In this document: positions 22,005 through 29,614 of the stretch, one piece after another
Layout of the letters: each line of letters opens with the position of its first letter
Numbering within the stretch: position 1 is the stretch's first letter
Program-made: the position numbers and the translations under genes
DNA from: a virus
IMG/VR virus record: IMGVR_UViG_3300042301_000926
Coordinates: 1 to 29,918 of that record
Direction: 5' to 3' (one strand)
Length of the DNA: 29,918 bases
The notes under the pieces: model-generated
Databases searched by the model: none
What the model was told of the DNA's origin: nothing
What the model saw: only the letters and a program-made list of their open reading frames with translations

Positions 22005-22460
22005 TCATTTTATAAGATAGCGTCTGACTAACCATGCCACTAAAGGTATGAGTAGCAACCACCATAAATTAAAGTAACTCGGCCTCTTATCTACGGACTT
22101 GACAAACGTCTCTTTCTTCTCCTCTTTCTTGACCTCCGTTTGCTTCTGTTCTGATTTTACAACAGTTGTTTTTGTTGTATCAATGACCTCTCTCTTCTTC
22201 TTTTTTATCTTAACCGTTGCGTTAACGTATTCCTTCCCACCAATAACCATTGGCTTTGTGGTATCCAATGGTACTATCTCTATCTCCTCAATATCTTCTT
22301 TGATGCTGATTGCATTCTGTTGAACAGCTACGCTATCCTTTTTCTCCACGACTACACTATCTGTGCGTGTTTCCACGACAGCCTTAGATATAGCCACCTT
22401 CCTTGTTGCACAAGAAAATAAAAAGAGACTAAGGAAGATTAACGTAAGAAGTCTTACCAT
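22005..22460 (-). CDS. Unimolecular spanin (u-spanin), outer-membrane disruption
   Basis: A 151-residue protein with a type II signal peptide and lipobox (LFSC, lipidated Cys at 17), a periplasmic stretch of about 110 residues rich in Val, Thr, Lys and Glu, and a C-terminal transmembrane helix (about 129-145: NLWWLLLIPLVAWLV) followed by RRYLIK. One protein anchored in the outer membrane by lipid and in the inner membrane by a C-terminal helix is the u-spanin layout (as in phage T1 gp11). Spanins fuse the two membranes in the last step of lysis of Gram-negative hosts. The start overlaps the endolysin gene by 32 nt, supporting a lysis role. The alternative is an unrelated lipoprotein, but the C-terminal helix and the neighbour argue against it. 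Confidence 0.8.
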   Translation of the reverse strand: MVRLLTLIFLSLFLFSCATRKVAISKAVVETRTDSVVVEKKDSVAVQQNAISIKEDIEEIEIVPLDTTKPMVIGGKEYVNATVKIKKKKREVIDTTKTTVVKSEQKQTEVKKEEKKETFVKSVDKRPSYFNLWWLLLIPLVAWLVRRYLIK

Positions 22461-22896
22461 TTGTTTTTACAGCTTTTAATTTTTGCTTTCGTTGTTTGCC
22501 TGTGCTTTCGTAAGAAACGTGAACCCAATCAGGATTCTTATCAGTTCCAAACTCCCAAATCAATTGGTCGAAATTTAAGTTGTCCTTAATGAAGTTGTAC
22601 ACGTCAGCATTAGTAACACCACTCCCACTATCATCCATATCGATGTCAATCGCTTCACCCTGACAATGCTGAGAGGACAAACTCCCTCCTATAGCAGTAT
22701 TGAGCTCCTTGCTTCTGTACCCTGACGAGATATGAATAGGTACACCAAAATGCTCACGAATAGGCTCAAATATATTTTCAGCCAACTTCTTAAAGTTTTC
22801 TAAATGCTCAGCAGTTGGGGTGTTGCTTATACCTCTGCGCTTAGCTGTTTCACTTCTACTTACTTCTGCTAATGATAAGTGCTCACTGATTTTCAT
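22429..22896 (-). CDS. Endolysin, peptidase M15 family
   Basis: A 155-residue zinc peptidase of the M15 (VanY/D-Ala-D-Ala carboxypeptidase-like) type, expected to cut peptidoglycan peptides during lysis. The signature is clear: SSGYRSKELNTAIGG (58-71), then SSQHCQGEAIDID (74-86) with zinc ligands H77 and D84, a probable catalytic Glu at 115 (IWEF), and WVHVSY with H126 as third ligand. The N-terminus (HLSLAEVSRSETAKRRGISN) matches the leading helix of the M15_3-type enzymes seen in many Bacteroidota phages. No signal peptide is present, so release needs a holin, and candidates lie directly upstream. It is followed by the overlapping u-spanin gene. The exact bond cleaved cannot be read from the sequence. 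Confidence 0.9.
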   Translation of the reverse strand: MKISEHLSLAEVSRSETAKRRGISNTPTAEHLENFKKLAENIFEPIREHFGVPIHISSGYRSKELNTAIGGSLSSQHCQGEAIDIDMDDSGSGVTNADVYNFIKDNLNFDQLIWEFGTDKNPDWVHVSYESTGKQRKQKLKAVKTNGKTSYVNLP

Positions 22897-22902
22897 ATTG
22901 TT

Positions 22903-24018
22903 TTATTTTTTTTCTTTACTTCCTTCTTGGGTAGCATATTTGATACCCATAATTGTTCCTACTATCGAAAAGGCGTTCGTCAATAATACGCTAAACATAT
23001 TACTCCACGTTGACCCAATTATCTGCGTATCCTTGTTCGTAAGAATTGCCATCCAATAAAGTATTGTTGTAACAACACCAACTCCAACTATTACCGCCAA
23101 AGCAACCTTAACAATTACTTTTATTAATTCGCTTTGACTCTTCTTTATCGTTGCATCCAAATCATTCAGGGCTGCATCCTTCTCCATCTCTATGGCTATC
23201 CTAAGCTTGTTTGAGTTGTCTAACTCTACTTGTAAATTTTTAGATAGCTCACTGATTTTATTTTTACTATTTATAGTTTCAGTAATGTCATTGGCAATTT
23301 TCATTACCTTTTTACAAGTACCATCATTGCTAAGTATTGGATTGTAAGTAGCCTTCAAATAAATAGGAGTGCCATCTACTTTCCTTCTTTCATACTCACC
23401 CTCAAAGAACTTTCCACTGCTTAACTTTGTCCAAAACTCTTTATATTCTTCTGACTTTAAATATTCGTGGCTAACAAAAATACTGTGATGCTTCCCAATA
23501 ATTTTACTCTCATCCTTCTCATCAAAGCCCATTGCTTTTAAGAAGATTGAGTTTGCCCCTAATATGTACCCGTCACAATCAAAATAAATAATGGCGTTGC
23601 TTTTACTCACTGCGCCAATCTCATTCTTTGCTATTACTGTTGTACTCACATCATTGGCGATCTTCATTATCTTGGTAACTTGACCATCCTCATTTAGTAT
23701 TGGATTGTAAGTTGCCTGTAGATAGATGAGACTTCCGTCTGATTTTACTCTCTCAAACTCACCCTCAAAAAACTTTCCTTCCCTTAATTTTTTCCAAAAA
23801 TCTTTATACTGCTCCGACTTTGAATATTCATTAGAAACAAAAATGCTATGGTGTTGACCAATAATTTTTTCGTGTTCCCCATCCTTATACCCCATCGTTT
23901 GCAAAAAGATCGAATTAACCCCAAGAATAATCCCGTTAAGATCAAAGTATATAATGGCATTGCTACGATTAATAGCCTCCATTCTACTCAACAGTTCTTC
24001 TCTACTTAGGTTCTTCAT
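22903..24018 (-). CDS. PAS-PAS sensor fused to a holin-like membrane domain
   Basis: A 371-residue protein from the ATG at 24018; an ATG at 24057 would add 13 residues but increase overlap with the previous gene from 17 to 56 nt. Two PAS domains lie at about 8-128 and 129-250 and are clearly a duplication. Each has SNAIIYFD, then LG-NSIFL-(T/A)MG, IIG(Q/K)HHSIFVS-EY, GKFFEGE-ER and ATYNPIL. This resembles the PAS type in bacterial chemotaxis receptors and BdlA-like proteins. A coiled coil follows (250-295), then two transmembrane helices (about 301-325 and 338-361) and a charged tail (EGSKEKK). No kinase, cyclase or methyl-accepting domain is present. It sits between a holin candidate and the endolysin, so a sensor-controlled lysis or membrane role is inferred. 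Ligand and function are unknown. Confidence 0.8.
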   Translation of the reverse strand: MKNLSREELLSRMEAINRSNAIIYFDLNGIILGVNSIFLQTMGYKDGEHEKIIGQHHSIFVSNEYSKSEQYKDFWKKLREGKFFEGEFERVKSDGSLIYLQATYNPILNEDGQVTKIMKIANDVSTTVIAKNEIGAVSKSNAIIYFDCDGYILGANSIFLKAMGFDEKDESKIIGKHHSIFVSHEYLKSEEYKEFWTKLSSGKFFEGEYERRKVDGTPIYLKATYNPILSNDGTCKKVMKIANDITETINSKNKISELSKNLQVELDNSNKLRIAIEMEKDAALNDLDATIKKSQSELIKVIVKVALAVIVGVGVVTTILYWMAILTNKDTQIIGSTWSNMFSVLLTNAFSIVGTIMGIKYATQEGSKEKK

Positions 24019-24250
24019 CTTTATCAGTAGGTTTCTTAAAGATCTTCTCTGCAGCACTGATGCCTAAAGCAGCAGCAGATAAAGCAGCAACTGAATATAC
24101 TAAAGCTTCTGACGGCTCGTTAACAGAGTCATGGTTGGCATACAATGTCCAACACAATGCTACTGCACTAAACACTCCAACAAATCTCTTGCTTGACGCT
24201 TGTCCGTTTTCTGACAAAAATCCTTTTGCCCATTCTAAAAATTTTCTCAT
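24002..24250 (-). CDS. Two-helix membrane protein, candidate holin
   Basis: An 82-residue protein with a short amphipathic N-terminus (MRKFLEWAKGFLSENGQASS), two hydrophobic helices (about 22-38 VGVFSAVALCWTLYA and 48-66 EALVYSVAALSAAALGIS) and a charged tail (KKPTDKDEEPK). Size, topology and position three genes before the spanin fit a holin that lets the endolysin reach the cell wall. The start codon overlaps the stop of the 40-residue gene (ATGA), and its end overlaps the PAS protein by 17 nt. Other membrane proteins in the same cluster compete for the holin assignment. Confidence 0.65.
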   Translation of the reverse strand: MRKFLEWAKGFLSENGQASSKRFVGVFSAVALCWTLYANHDSVNEPSEALVYSVAALSAAALGISAAEKIFKKPTDKDEEPK

Positions 24251-24369
24251 CTTCCTTGCCCCCTATATTGTTTTGGTTTTGGACTGTGTTTGTTATAAGA
24301 CTTTTTAGCAACGCCTCTTTTGCGCTTGCCAAAGCTTATCTTCTTAGCACTCGATACATTTTTTGCCAT
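24247..24369 (-). CDS. 40-residue basic protein
   Basis: A short gene with an ATG at 24369 and TGA at 24247-24249, encoding a very basic peptide with FGKRKRGVAKKSYNKHSP in the middle and the ending QYRGQGR. The start overlaps the stop of the gene before it by 1 nt and the stop overlaps the next start (ATGA), strong signs of a real coupled gene. The K/R-rich core with a C-terminal YRGQGR recurs, to my knowledge, in small Bacteroidota phage proteins. Function unknown; nucleic-acid binding is possible from charge. Confidence 0.7.
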   Translation of the reverse strand: MAKNVSSAKKISFGKRKRGVAKKSYNKHSPKPKQYRGQGR

Positions 24370-24659
24370 TATAATCCTTTTAGAAAATCAATAATAACTT
24401 TAAGAACTCCAAGTCCAATAAGCGTAACCATGGCATAGAAGTATGCTTTGTACTTTTTTATCTCAGCCTTTAAGGCATACACTTCTTTCTTCATTGTTCT
24501 TAAATCTCCGATCATACCGCTTGAGTCTTTGTCAATCGGATTACCGGATAATAAGTTGTGCATGTCTTTTACGATCGCCTTTACTTCAGCTACATCGCTC
24601 TTTAGAGCATCTAACTCTGCTGCCATATAATCAAGCCTATTGTTTTCTTGAGGATTCAT
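24369..24659 (-). CDS. Coiled-coil plus membrane-anchor protein, holin-like accessory
   Basis: A 96-residue protein with a long N-terminal helix of heptad character (about 8-40: MAAELDALKSDVAEVKAIVK), a second charged helix (50-70) and one C-terminal transmembrane helix (about 72-92: YFYAMVTLIGLGVLKVIIDF). The layout resembles XhlA-type or similar holin-associated proteins, with a cytoplasmic coiled coil and a membrane anchor. It is translationally coupled to the 40-residue gene downstream. It may be a holin, an antiholin or a partner of the PAS protein, which also has a coiled coil beside its membrane helices. Confidence 0.6.
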   Translation of the reverse strand: MNPQENNRLDYMAAELDALKSDVAEVKAIVKDMHNLLSGNPIDKDSSGMIGDLRTMKKEVYALKAEIKKYKAYFYAMVTLIGLGVLKVIIDFLKGL

Positions 24660-26747: not shown

Positions 26748-27200
26748 ATGAAATCAGATTATTTAAAATATTGGAGAGTTATCGCTCAATATACAAAAGT
26801 TCGGTACAATATTGGCCAAGCCGACCTCGATATGATGCTTTTTCTTTACTCAGAACAATACTTCACCATAAGAAAATTTAAGGAATTTGCTGAGCTTGTC
26901 TCATGGGATCGTGGCCGATTCGGCCGACTCGTCAAGGAAGGATGGATCGAAAACTTCAGACCCGGGAATAAAGGGCAGCGTGCGCTATACTGTCTATCGC
27001 TGAAAGCCAAGCGCATGATTCAGTCACTATACAAGAAGCTGAACGGGGAAGAGATCCCGGAAACAGCATGCAATAACCCCATGTTCAAAAAGAATGTTCG
27101 GTACAACGACAAGGTGTACCGCAATATGATCAAGACCATGAACGCCTCTATCAGAGAGTCAAAGGCTACAGGACAAGAACTACATCACGTTCCTGAATGA
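26748..27200 (+). CDS. Winged-helix DNA-binding protein, candidate regulator
   Basis: A 150-residue protein, the only gene on the plus strand. Residues 20-95 look like a winged helix: helices DLDMMLFLYSEQYFTIRKFK and EFAELVSWDRGRFGRLVKEG, then a wing (WIENFRPGNKGQRALYCLS) and a helix (KAKRMIQSLYKKL), similar in layout to MarR-type domains. The C-terminus is basic (KKNVRYNDKVYRNMIKTMNA). Its ATG lies 5 nt after the palindromic divergent promoter, so self-regulation or control of the late cluster is plausible. The 3' end overlaps the groES gene on the other strand by 35 nt. I infer a transcription regulator; the target is unknown. Confidence 0.7.
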   Translation: MKSDYLKYWRVIAQYTKVRYNIGQADLDMMLFLYSEQYFTIRKFKEFAELVSWDRGRFGRLVKEGWIENFRPGNKGQRALYCLSLKAKRMIQSLYKKLNGEEIPETACNNPMFKKNVRYNDKVYRNMIKTMNASIRESKATGQELHHVPE

Positions 27201-27423
27201 TCGTGAACTGCTCGTCATGGATGATCATGGTATAACTCTGCGCACGATCGTAGTAGATTTCATCACCCTCTTGGATGGCCTTCACCTCAGTGCCGGGAGT
27301 AATCACCTTTCCACGCTTATAGCGTAGCTGATTGGTGTCCTCTCCGGATAGGACAAGCCCGGAGGCTGTCTTAATTTCTTCGTCAACATTTCTGATGACA
27401 ATGTTTTTTCCTATTGCTTTCAT
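27166..27423 (-). CDS. groES: GroES co-chaperonin
   Basis: An 85-residue GroES that caps GroEL during folding. It has the start MKAIGKNIVIRNVDEE, the mobile loop region IKTASGLVLSGED (17-29, corresponding to the GGIVLTG element), then YKRGKVITPGTE, EGDEIYYDRA (the GD strand) and the final strands DEQFTIIQERDVVLVL. It is shorter than bacterial GroES (about 97) because the roof-loop segment between the PGTE strand and the GD strand is missing. It is the last gene of the groEL unit. A perfect inverted repeat lies 3 nt before the ATG. The stop region overlaps the convergent regulator gene. Confidence 0.85.
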   Translation of the reverse strand: MKAIGKNIVIRNVDEEIKTASGLVLSGEDTNQLRYKRGKVITPGTEVKAIQEGDEIYYDRAQSYTMIIHDEQFTIIQERDVVLVL

Positions 27424-27719: not shown

Positions 27720-27970
27720 GGCTCGATCATTTTTGCAAATATTGGAGTATCCTCACCCATGTAAGCCCCTGCAATATTAAAATCAAAGTACTCAATGGCA
27801 TCATCATAGCTCATGTCCTTCATCAGGATCTCCACTATCTTATCAACACTGTAGACCAATCTGAAGTTGGTTACATCAACCCCGACAATAGCCTCGTCCA
27901 TGTCAGTAACCGTCAAAAACGTCTCGTCAGGGTACATCTCAATTATCTCGTCAATCTTACTTTGTCTCAT
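27710..27970 (-). CDS. Small conserved protein within the chaperonin operon
   Basis: An 86-residue acidic protein. The ATG at 27970 (MRQSKIDEIIEMYPDETFLT) is preferred over one at 27997 because it overlaps the groEL end by only 14 nt and the extra residues look unrelated. The pattern EMYPDETFL, DMDEAIVGVD, VYSVDKIVEILMKDM, then DDAIEYFDFNIAGAYMGEDT is one I recall from small conserved phage proteins. The function is unknown. Being sandwiched between groEL and groES could mean a role linked to the chaperonin, or just shared timing. Confidence 0.65.
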   Translation of the reverse strand: MRQSKIDEIIEMYPDETFLTVTDMDEAIVGVDVTNFRLVYSVDKIVEILMKDMSYDDAIEYFDFNIAGAYMGEDTPIFAKMIEPCK

Positions 27971-29555
27971 AGCTTCTTGCCATTGTGATGATAGCATTGG
28001 TTGAAAGAATAGTTGTCGCTACGCTCACTGCATTCTGCAGCGCTGAGCGTGTCACCTTCAATGGGTCAACTACACCCATCTTGATCAGGTCGCCCATCTG
28101 CTTGGTCTTGACGTTTAACCCCATGCCCTCACCAACCTCAAGGGTATAGTAGTCTGAGGCGTTCAACCCTGCGTTCTCAAGGATCTGCTCAAGGGGTGCT
28201 TTAAGTGCACCTTGCAATATCTGAGCTGCGATGTCCTGCTCCTCTTGGGTGATCTCACCCAAAATGTCGAAGACCTCAATCTCGTACAAGGCTTTACCAC
28301 CACCGGGCAATATGCCTTCTTCAAGAGCCGAACGTACCGCACAGATCGAGTCATCGATCCTGTCGTACAATTCCTTCTGCTCAAGGTCAGTATTGCCACC
28401 GGCATAGATCACCCCAATGCCACCCGTAAGTGACGCTATACGCTCGAGCAAGTGGTCCTTGTCAGACTTCTTCTTGGCCTGAGCATGCGCCTCCCAAAGT
28501 TGGGCTACCCTTTCATCGATTCTATCAGGAGCAACTTTTAGGTCGCTCTTCAGGATGATGGTCTTATCTCTTGCCACGATAACCTTGGAGGCATGGCCCA
28601 AATCAGCGTAGCTGATCTGAGACAGATCGTCTCCGGTCTTCTCGCTGAAGTATGTGGCTCCGACACTTATTGCAAGGTCCTGCATCAGCTCATGCTGCTT
28701 ATACCCAAAGCTTGGAGGTTGAACCGCACAAAGCTTCAAGTTGTTCTTCATCACATTAGCCGCAAAGGTATTCACCACATTCACATGGCATGGTGCCACG
28801 ATCAGGAGCTTCTTACCCTCGGTTATAATTGGTTTCAATATGTTCTCAATCTGTAGAATATTGCTGATCTCAATGTCAGCCACAAGGATCATCACGTCCT
28901 CAAACACACACTCGTCCTTTTTCTGATCGTTGATAAATAGCGGACTCAAATACCCTCTGTCAATCTTTAACCCCTTGGTGGTCTCAGCATAGGTGTCAGC
29001 ACTTTGACTGCGCTCTACCGTAACAATGCCATTACGCCCCACGTCCTTATACACCTCGGCTATAATCCTACCAATCTCACGGTCGTTGTTCGCTGAGATG
29101 GAGGCAATGTCGTTAAGCATGCTTGAGGACACTTTCTTAGAACGCCTCCTAAGCTTATCCACCGCCTTTGTGGATATGTCCACCATGTTGCGCAGCACCT
29201 CCGTCCGATTATGGTGTGGCTTCATCAGCTCAAGACCACCAAGCACGAGCGCCTCGGTCAATACAATTGCCGTGGTCGTACCATCACCTGCAGAAGTAGC
29301 CGTCCGATCTGCCGCCTCTTTCATCATCTTAACCGCAAGGTTCTCGACAGGGTCCAACAAGTCAACCGCCTTGGCCACCGTCACGCCATCTTTGGTGACG
29401 GTGATGCCATGCGTATGTTGGGGGGACTCAATAAGAACTGTATTACCATTAGGGCCCAATGTGCTTTTCACAGCACCTGCTATCTTCTTGATACCATTAA
29501 TGAGCTTGTGCCGACCTTCTTCGGCAAAGATTAAGTCTTTAGGAGAGTATTCCAT
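27957..29555 (-). CDS. groEL: GroEL chaperonin (phage-encoded)
   Basis: A 532-residue 60-kDa chaperonin that folds proteins in an ATP-driven ring. It starts at the ATG at 29555 (MEYSPKDLIFAEEGRHKLI); an upstream ATG at 29585 adds 10 residues unlike GroEL and lies inside the promoter. The signatures are intact: STLGPNGNTV (31-40), TKDGVTVAK, the ATP loop DGTTTA (91-96), ISANNDREIG, RGYLSPLFI (LSP motif) and, near 399-420, RIDDSICAVRSALEEGILPG with the catalytic Asp at 402. The C-terminus ends ARSYETK and lacks the Gly-Gly-Met repeats of bacterial GroEL. Two small genes separate it from groES. Phage chaperonins usually help fold capsid or tail proteins, or supplement the host system; here the targets are unknown. 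Confidence 0.95.
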   Translation of the reverse strand: MEYSPKDLIFAEEGRHKLINGIKKIAGAVKSTLGPNGNTVLIESPQHTHGITVTKDGVTVAKAVDLLDPVENLAVKMMKEAADRTATSAGDGTTTAIVLTEALVLGGLELMKPHHNRTEVLRNMVDISTKAVDKLRRRSKKVSSSMLNDIASISANNDREIGRIIAEVYKDVGRNGIVTVERSQSADTYAETTKGLKIDRGYLSPLFINDQKKDECVFEDVMILVADIEISNILQIENILKPIITEGKKLLIVAPCHVNVVNTFAANVMKNNLKLCAVQPPSFGYKQHELMQDLAISVGATYFSEKTGDDLSQISYADLGHASKVIVARDKTIILKSDLKVAPDRIDERVAQLWEAHAQAKKKSDKDHLLERIASLTGGIGVIYAGGNTDLEQKELYDRIDDSICAVRSALEEGILPGGGKALYEIEVFDILGEITQEEQDIAAQILQGALKAPLEQILENAGLNASDYYTLEVGEGMGLNVKTKQMGDLIKMGVVDPLKVTRSALQNAVSVATTILSTNAIITMARSYETK

Positions 29556-29582
29556 TTGATTCGATTTGATTATTACAGGAAA

Positions 29583-29614
29583 CAAAGTTAATATATCGCA
29601 TGCGATATAACAAA
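29583..29614 (-). promoter_or_regulatory. groEL promoter with a palindrome filling the spacer
   Basis: On the minus strand a -33 TTTG (29614-29611), a 20-nt spacer and a -7 TAACTTTG (29590-29583) fit the Bacteroidota consensus very well. The spacer contains the perfect 18-bp palindrome TATATCGCATGCGATATA (29592-29609), which would block RNA polymerase if bound by a repressor or could be an activator site. The AATC-rich leader and the groEL ATG at 29555 follow. Confidence 0.75.

Follow-up and report, generated by a model that had tools for sequence, protein, structure and literature searches.

A family of PAS-domain membrane proteins is linked to lysis genes in environmental phages and may sense a signal for lysis timing

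The PAS-TM proteins described here form a family that is tied to lysis genes across many unrelated phages. In every genuine complete copy listed, one or two PAS domains, assigned by their sequence to the FAD type, come first and a long helix and a two-helix membrane hairpin follow; the second helix of this hairpin is under extreme constraint at the protein level. We lean towards the view that PAS-TM serves the lysis cassette as a membrane-anchored sensor subunit and acts on the timing of the holin.

Results

A PAS-TM gene within a phage lysis cassette

The window, by which we mean the whole stretch of 29,918 nucleotides analysed (IMG/VR virus record IMGVR_UViG_3300042301_000926), carries a PAS-TM gene at 22903–24018 on the minus strand. 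Its 371 codons start from an ATG at 24018, and the assignment is based on the open reading frame and its translation, Pfam and TIGR profiles, and an AlphaFold2 model. In the order of transcription, the minus-strand cassette comprises a gene at 24369–24659, hol2TM (24002–24250), PAS-TM, an M15 endolysin (22429–22896) and a spanin-like gene (22005–22460). Hol2TM is an 82-residue membrane protein and holin candidate without a family match of its own; it lies upstream of PAS-TM, with which it shares a 17-base overlap. The endolysin follows 6 bases downstream of PAS-TM and was identified by Pfam Peptidase_M15_3 (E = 2e-20) and a PHROG endolysin profile (E = 1e-37). These coordinates and profile matches agree with the preliminary description of this DNA, which had placed the PAS gene between a holin candidate and the M15 endolysin.

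The spanin-like gene, which overlaps the endolysin frame by 32 bases, was absent from that description. Its lipobox (LFSC) and C-terminal membrane helix indicate a probable unimolecular spanin, and it also matches phrog_5885 (E = 5e-9), labelled in PHROGs as of unknown function. The product of the first gene of the cassette is helical and has a single membrane segment at its C-terminus; it is a possible lysis accessory, judging by its position and a weak PHROG hemolysin match (E = 0.008).

The TerL protein of the window is nearest to that of the uncultured podovirus ctfjg026 (76%), followed by those of Flavobacterium and Cellulophaga phages (about 45%), and a Bacteroidota host is therefore likely for this phage. 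The window also encodes GroEL (27957–29585; Pfam E = 6e-55) and GroES (27166–27423; E = 3e-11), both of which occur in ctfjg026, elemo and immuto as well.

Domain layout of PAS-TM

Two stretches of the protein were recognised as PAS domains by Pfam (PAS_3, E = 3e-21; PAS_9, E = 9e-20; PAS, E = 4e-19), by NCBIfam (TIGR00229, E = 2e-25) and in the AlphaFold2 model. Domain 1 covers residues 20–124 (23647–23961, minus strand) and domain 2 residues 141–248 (23275–23598, minus strand). In the translation, each copy carries one set of the same motifs, with IIGQHHSIFVSNEY in one and IIGKHHSIFVSHEY in the other, and GKFFEGE and ATYNPIL in both. The tandem PAS arrangement and the duplicated motifs, both read earlier from the sequence, are thus upheld.

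A long helix, conserved in the family, leads from PAS domain 2 to the membrane. In the AlphaFold2 model its cytoplasmic part takes up residues 246–304 (23107–23283, minus strand), and its length makes a coiled coil probable. Membrane helix 1 (residues 305–327; 23038–23106, minus strand) is hydrophobic and variable in sequence, as seen from hydropathy and alignment. It is followed by an invariant block at residues 331–363 (22930–23028, minus strand), TQIIGSTWSNMFSVLLTNAFSIVGTIMGIKYAT, which was defined from 47 representatives, includes membrane helix 2 and bears a stripe of Ser, Asn, Thr and Gly. The model (mean pLDDT 77.6, pTM 0.39) contains two PAS folds, an unbroken helix at 246–327 and a further helix at 331–366; because the pTM is only 0.39, the relative placement of the domains is unreliable. 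Hydropathy puts the membrane helices at about 298–328 and 338–360 and, together with the modelled helices, supports the presence of two at the C-terminus, as had been noted. The chain ends 9 residues past helix 2, with neither a HAMP nor a kinase-control domain after the hairpin. No signal peptide is apparent in PAS-TM, and the PAS domains should therefore be cytoplasmic.

The PAS domains resemble FAD-binding sensors

The best PDB sequence matches of the PAS-TM PAS domains are MmoS, NifL and Aer, all of which bind FAD. MmoS (PDB 3ewk) tops the Foldseek ranking and is the best match in both sequence and structure over the tandem PAS unit. HMMER alignments set W75 (codon 23794–23796) and W196 (codon 23431–23433) against a Trp of MmoS, NifL and Aer, and H57 (codon 23848–23850) and H178 (codon 23485–23487) against a His of MmoS and Aer. 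Across the listed PAS-TM copies, both residues are kept in every one of 185 PAS domains (78 first, 78 second and 29 single). A Trp at the F-alpha position is the main determinant of FAD binding by PAS domains, to which the AerC (9) and Aer (14) clusters add a His as the second (PMC10468136). The PAS domains of PAS-TM combine three features of the AerC type, namely the PAS fold, the Trp at F-alpha and the second-determinant His.

The best prediction is therefore that these domains are of the FAD type and AerC-like, and that they respond through FAD to a redox or energy signal; it follows by homology from the retained Trp and His and from the matches to MmoS, NifL and Aer. The preliminary description had compared the domains with those of chemotaxis receptors and BdlA-like proteins that report oxygen, redox or ligand state. 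The PAS class can now be named as FAD-type and AerC-like, and among solved structures the best matches are MmoS, NifL and Aer.

The likeness to AerC-type chemoreceptor PAS domains (PAS_FAD2, cluster 9) extends to the frequent tandem arrangement, the Trp at F-alpha with its His, and the typical distance between the two. AerC, however, works as a soluble chemoreceptor and possesses a kinase-control domain, whereas PAS-TM has a membrane hairpin, lacks an output domain and is only predicted to bind FAD. MmoS is a histidine kinase sensor of methanotrophs and, unlike PAS-TM, not a membrane hairpin protein. In the aerotaxis receptor Aer, a cytoplasmic FAD-PAS domain is followed by a two-helix transmembrane hairpin with a short periplasmic loop. 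PAS-TM shares this layout, with cytoplasmic placement and FAD binding predicted in its case, and its PAS sequence matches that of Aer (PDB 8dik). It differs from Aer in having one or two PAS domains, no HAMP or signalling domain beyond the hairpin, and a location in phage lysis cassettes.

Size, architecture and spread of the family

A scan with the C-terminal 117 residues yielded 495 confirmed IMG/VR stretches encoding the C-terminal part of PAS-TM, the best 80 of which were sampled. A second scan, which looked for helix 2 by a degenerate pattern at the DNA level and did not rank by similarity to the window, gave at least 119 stretches. Merging the listed stretches at 95% nucleotide identity or above left 114 groups, on contigs ranging from a few kilobases up to 272 kb.

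Of the 104 complete, non-redundant open reading frames listed, 74 encode two PAS domains and 29 a single one, the last being a broken gene; no genuine copy without a PAS domain was found among them. The broken gene (L139) is the only PAS-less open frame in this set. Its 140-residue frame, considered as a stand-alone C-terminal copy, was rejected because the family N-terminus sits in a 227-residue frame directly ahead of it. The single-PAS copies (for example L082:9602-10354 and L078:9602-10354) resemble PAS domain 1 at both ends and PAS domain 2 in the middle (log-odds +11.5, +7.7, -13.5, -3.5, +7.8 and +5.6 along the domain), and the number of PAS copies has therefore probably been altered by exchange between the repeats.

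At one locus (L002) the PAS-TM protein is 88% identical to that of the window, yet almost no other window gene was matched in 21 kb. The occurrence of such similar PAS-TM copies in otherwise unlike loci indicates that the gene is passed from phage to phage. No bacterial homologue, and no copy of the C-terminus, came up when 84,980 prokaryote species genomes were scanned twice with short exact patterns, which reach close relatives only. One apparent phage homologue, MT836939.1 (L091, labelled Bacteriophage sp.), was set aside: it encodes a 675-residue, bacterial-type chemoreceptor with two PAS domains followed by a GGDEF/EAL gene, and we regard it as a bacterial contig because of this content.

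PAS-TM is linked to unrelated endolysins

Linkage was assessed in those 64 of the listed non-redundant loci in which PAS-TM is flanked on either side by 4 genes or more. Gene neighbours were clustered and then labelled, and endolysin profiles were made from the recurring ones. The homologues do not lie away from lysis genes, a pattern that the preliminary description had counted against a role in lysis: an endolysin is found within 3 genes of PAS-TM in 59 of the 64 listed loci, on the same strand in all 59, in otherwise unrelated phages. As a control, the same profiles were applied to 222 genes at a distance of more than 9 genes, and an endolysin lay within 4 genes of only 0.5% of them, a rate that is somewhat favourable because the profiles derive from recurring neighbours.

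The loci share less than 95% nucleotide identity and are not fully independent by descent. The endolysins near PAS-TM nonetheless belong to four unrelated families (GH19, M15, phage lysozyme and a peptidoglycan-binding type), and the association thus does not stem from a single ancestral gene order. The GH19 cluster matched Pfam at E = 6e-9 and PHROG endolysins at E = 3e-61. Phage lysozyme was recognised at E = 2e-42 and the peptidoglycan-binding domain at E = 7e-14, the cluster with this domain also having endolysin-like PHROGs.

Besides M15, the recurring neighbours include Phage_holin_4_1 and a small family with two membrane helices, to which the window gene at 24002–24250 belongs. A relative of this hol2TM lies within 4 genes in 44 of the 64 listed loci, immediately adjacent in 35; in the other 20 none was seen at that distance, and hol2TM is therefore not a universal partner. 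Phage_holin_4_1 genes occur near PAS-TM in 14 of the 64, and about 17 of the 64 have neither type within 4 genes. PAS-TM is accordingly encoded beside a holin candidate in a lysis cassette, as an antiholin or other regulator would be, and most PAS-TM cassettes carry another holin candidate.

Lysis cassettes with and without PAS-TM

Loci anchored on hol2TM relatives were found in both states, with PAS-TM between hol2TM and the endolysin in 29 and absent in 34. In one locus (L200) the order is hol2TM, PAS-TM, a GH19 endolysin and a holin-like gene, and in the cultured Flavobacterium phage immuto hol2TM, a GH19 endolysin and an annotated holin follow one another with no PAS-TM among them. The immuto hol2TM relative, an unannotated holin candidate, lies directly upstream of the annotated endolysin (NC_055915.1, 43413-43721; L283:3938-4246). 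The phage ctfjg026, which is related to that of the window, encodes a non-homologous protein directly upstream of M15. From this pattern of presence and absence, PAS-TM is an optional insert at the junction of holin and endolysin.

Elsewhere the same slot is held by a 96-residue membrane and coiled-coil protein together with a 119-residue lipoprotein (L206:4239-4891, L207, L221, L225, L233, L242 and L249). The lipoprotein has a weak match to Rz-like spanins (E = 0.007). Inspection by eye rejected both proteins as PAS-less homologues of PAS-TM, and similar 100-residue proteins (cluster 19) co-occur with PAS-TM.

An invariant, amphipathic second membrane helix

Residues 331–363 are identical in 47 representatives, a conservation that is inflated for some residues, as the scan patterns fall within this block; the residues outside the patterns are just as fixed, and membrane helix 1 is free to vary. 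Synonymous codons differ at nearly every position, and a DNA-level element as the source of the invariance was rejected on this ground. With the protein fixed and the codons free, selection must act at the protein level. Helix 2 is also amphipathic, with a moment of 0.295 against 0.131 for shuffled sequences, 1.4% of which reach as high a value. S336, N340, S343, T347, S351, G354 and G358 line one face. Such constraint and amphipathy fit either a helix that lines a pore or one that packs against others within a fixed complex.

No significant match of the C-terminus to holin or antiholin families was found in Pfam, PHROGs or NCBIfam. The comparison with phrog_689 stayed at chance level (E = 0.11; 4 of 34 members). 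Another PHROG family, phrog_1544, labelled as of unknown function, spans the C-terminal region of PAS-TM, and all 34 members scanned match it (best E = 1.6e-4). Kinship of the C-terminus with hol2TM was rejected at an hhalign probability of 9%. The earlier term 'holin-like' for this part of the protein is therefore not supported: it matches no holin family, is unrelated to hol2TM and has no genuine stand-alone copy among those listed.

Discussion

Between a sensory antiholin or lysis-timing regulator on the one hand and a stand-alone holin on the other, we favour the former. A regulator is likelier than a hole-former because cassettes without PAS-TM exist and because most cassettes with PAS-TM hold another holin candidate. 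The preliminary description had proposed that the phage couples an environmental signal to lysis timing or membrane permeabilisation. Membership of the lysis module and the FAD-type PAS class lend weight to this coupling; the holin identity of the C-terminus finds no support here.

In the mechanism that we propose, the PAS domains would sit in the cytoplasm, bind FAD and track redox or energy state in the infected cell. From there a signal would pass along the long helix, in the manner of Aer-type receptors, and would alter the packing of the hairpin with the holin of the cassette, the most likely partner being the adjacent hol2TM. Hole formation might in this way be delayed or triggered, and the effect could run in either direction.

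PAS-TM could instead be the holin itself, a class II hole-former (N-in, C-in) with two helices, gated by its fused PAS sensor. Like a holin, it has two membrane helices and is encoded beside an endolysin gene, and the endolysins that it adjoins show no signal peptide. The hairpin with its short basic tail, the fully invariant helix 2 with its amphipathic Ser/Asn/Thr/Gly stripe, and the loci in which both hol2TM and Phage_holin_4_1 are missing nearby are in keeping with such a role. We nevertheless think it unlikely: the only family matches are at chance level, and the hole-forming part was not seen on its own, with the proviso that divergent forms could escape the scan. Sister cassettes do without PAS-TM, the other cassettes mostly have a further holin candidate, a cytoplasmic domain of 250–300 residues would be exceptional among holins, and holins usually diverge fast, in contrast to the invariant helix 2.

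Somewhat less likely again is that PAS-TM serves in signalling or superinfection exclusion at the membrane and only happens to share the late operon with the lysis genes. PAS-TM is optional and mobile between unrelated phages, as the L002 locus illustrates, and optional genes of late operons often serve host interaction. A free rider, however, should not track four unrelated endolysin families so closely, nor would its frequent same-strand adjacency to hol2TM be expected. That PAS-TM is a truncated Aer-like receptor disturbing the energy taxis or chemotaxis of the host is very improbable: the topology is that of Aer and the PAS domains have matches in Aer and in sensors of the aerotaxis type, but the HAMP and kinase-control domains are missing, the strict linkage to lysis genes is left unexplained, and TerL puts the phage of the window close to those infecting Flavobacterium and Cellulophaga, which are gliding bacteria and to our knowledge usually have no flagellar chemotaxis arrays.

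A different candidate sensor was found in some of the cassettes that lack PAS-TM. These carry a set of three genes, encoding a small protein that resembles holins (in L230, phrog_6384 holin at E = 1.6e-6), a membrane protein of 210–226 residues and an outer-membrane-like protein of 144 residues. In the second of these (L230:2918-3568, plus strand; L284-L342), whose gene lies between the other two, N- and C-terminal membrane helices flank a four-helix domain. An endolysin is nearby in 60 of the 63 loci with this set and PAS-TM in none of the 63; conversely, the four-helix protein had no match among 2192 proteins of PAS-TM loci. The chemoreceptor domain 4HB_MCP_1 of Pfam matches 13 of 14 members, and in the member shown it falls under the curated cut-off (E = 1.6e-5; 25 bits against 27). 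Foldseek gave E values that are not significant (best 0.05, with OspC also among the hits) and TM-scores to chemoreceptor domains of up to 0.73. These matches are no more than suggestive of a chemoreceptor-like, ligand-binding sensor. We tentatively raise the possibility, which we regard as rather doubtful, that lysis cassettes hold interchangeable sensory modules, either a cytoplasmic FAD-PAS domain or a periplasmic, chemoreceptor-like four-helix bundle, and that either sets the time of lysis from the redox state or the surroundings. If true, this would amount to a modular, previously undescribed layer of sensory input for lysis.

Lysis timing is the central decision of a lytic phage, and its known sensory input, in the lysis inhibition of T-even phages and ICP1, reports superinfection. 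Holin timing is coupled to a signal by the T4 antiholins RI and RIII and by ArrA of phage ICP1, which are phage-encoded small proteins of the membrane or of the periplasm/cytoplasm, and we propose a similar coupling for PAS-TM. In contrast to PAS-TM, these proteins sense superinfection, have no PAS or other cofactor-binding sensor and are not homologous to it. In a literature search that covered subscription papers and preprints thinly, we found no report of a PAS sensor tied to a phage holin, to lysis or to an endolysin.

The presence and absence of PAS-TM in closely related cassettes, including that of a cultured Flavobacterium phage, make its role directly testable. If the FAD-PAS domains are wired into lysis, their two Trp residues would offer a cofactor-based handle that can be mutated. 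Our results suggest that hundreds of environmental phages with PAS-TM may read redox or energy state to time lysis. Should this wiring hold, many phages, apparently of Bacteroidota, would also read the redox or energy state of their host.
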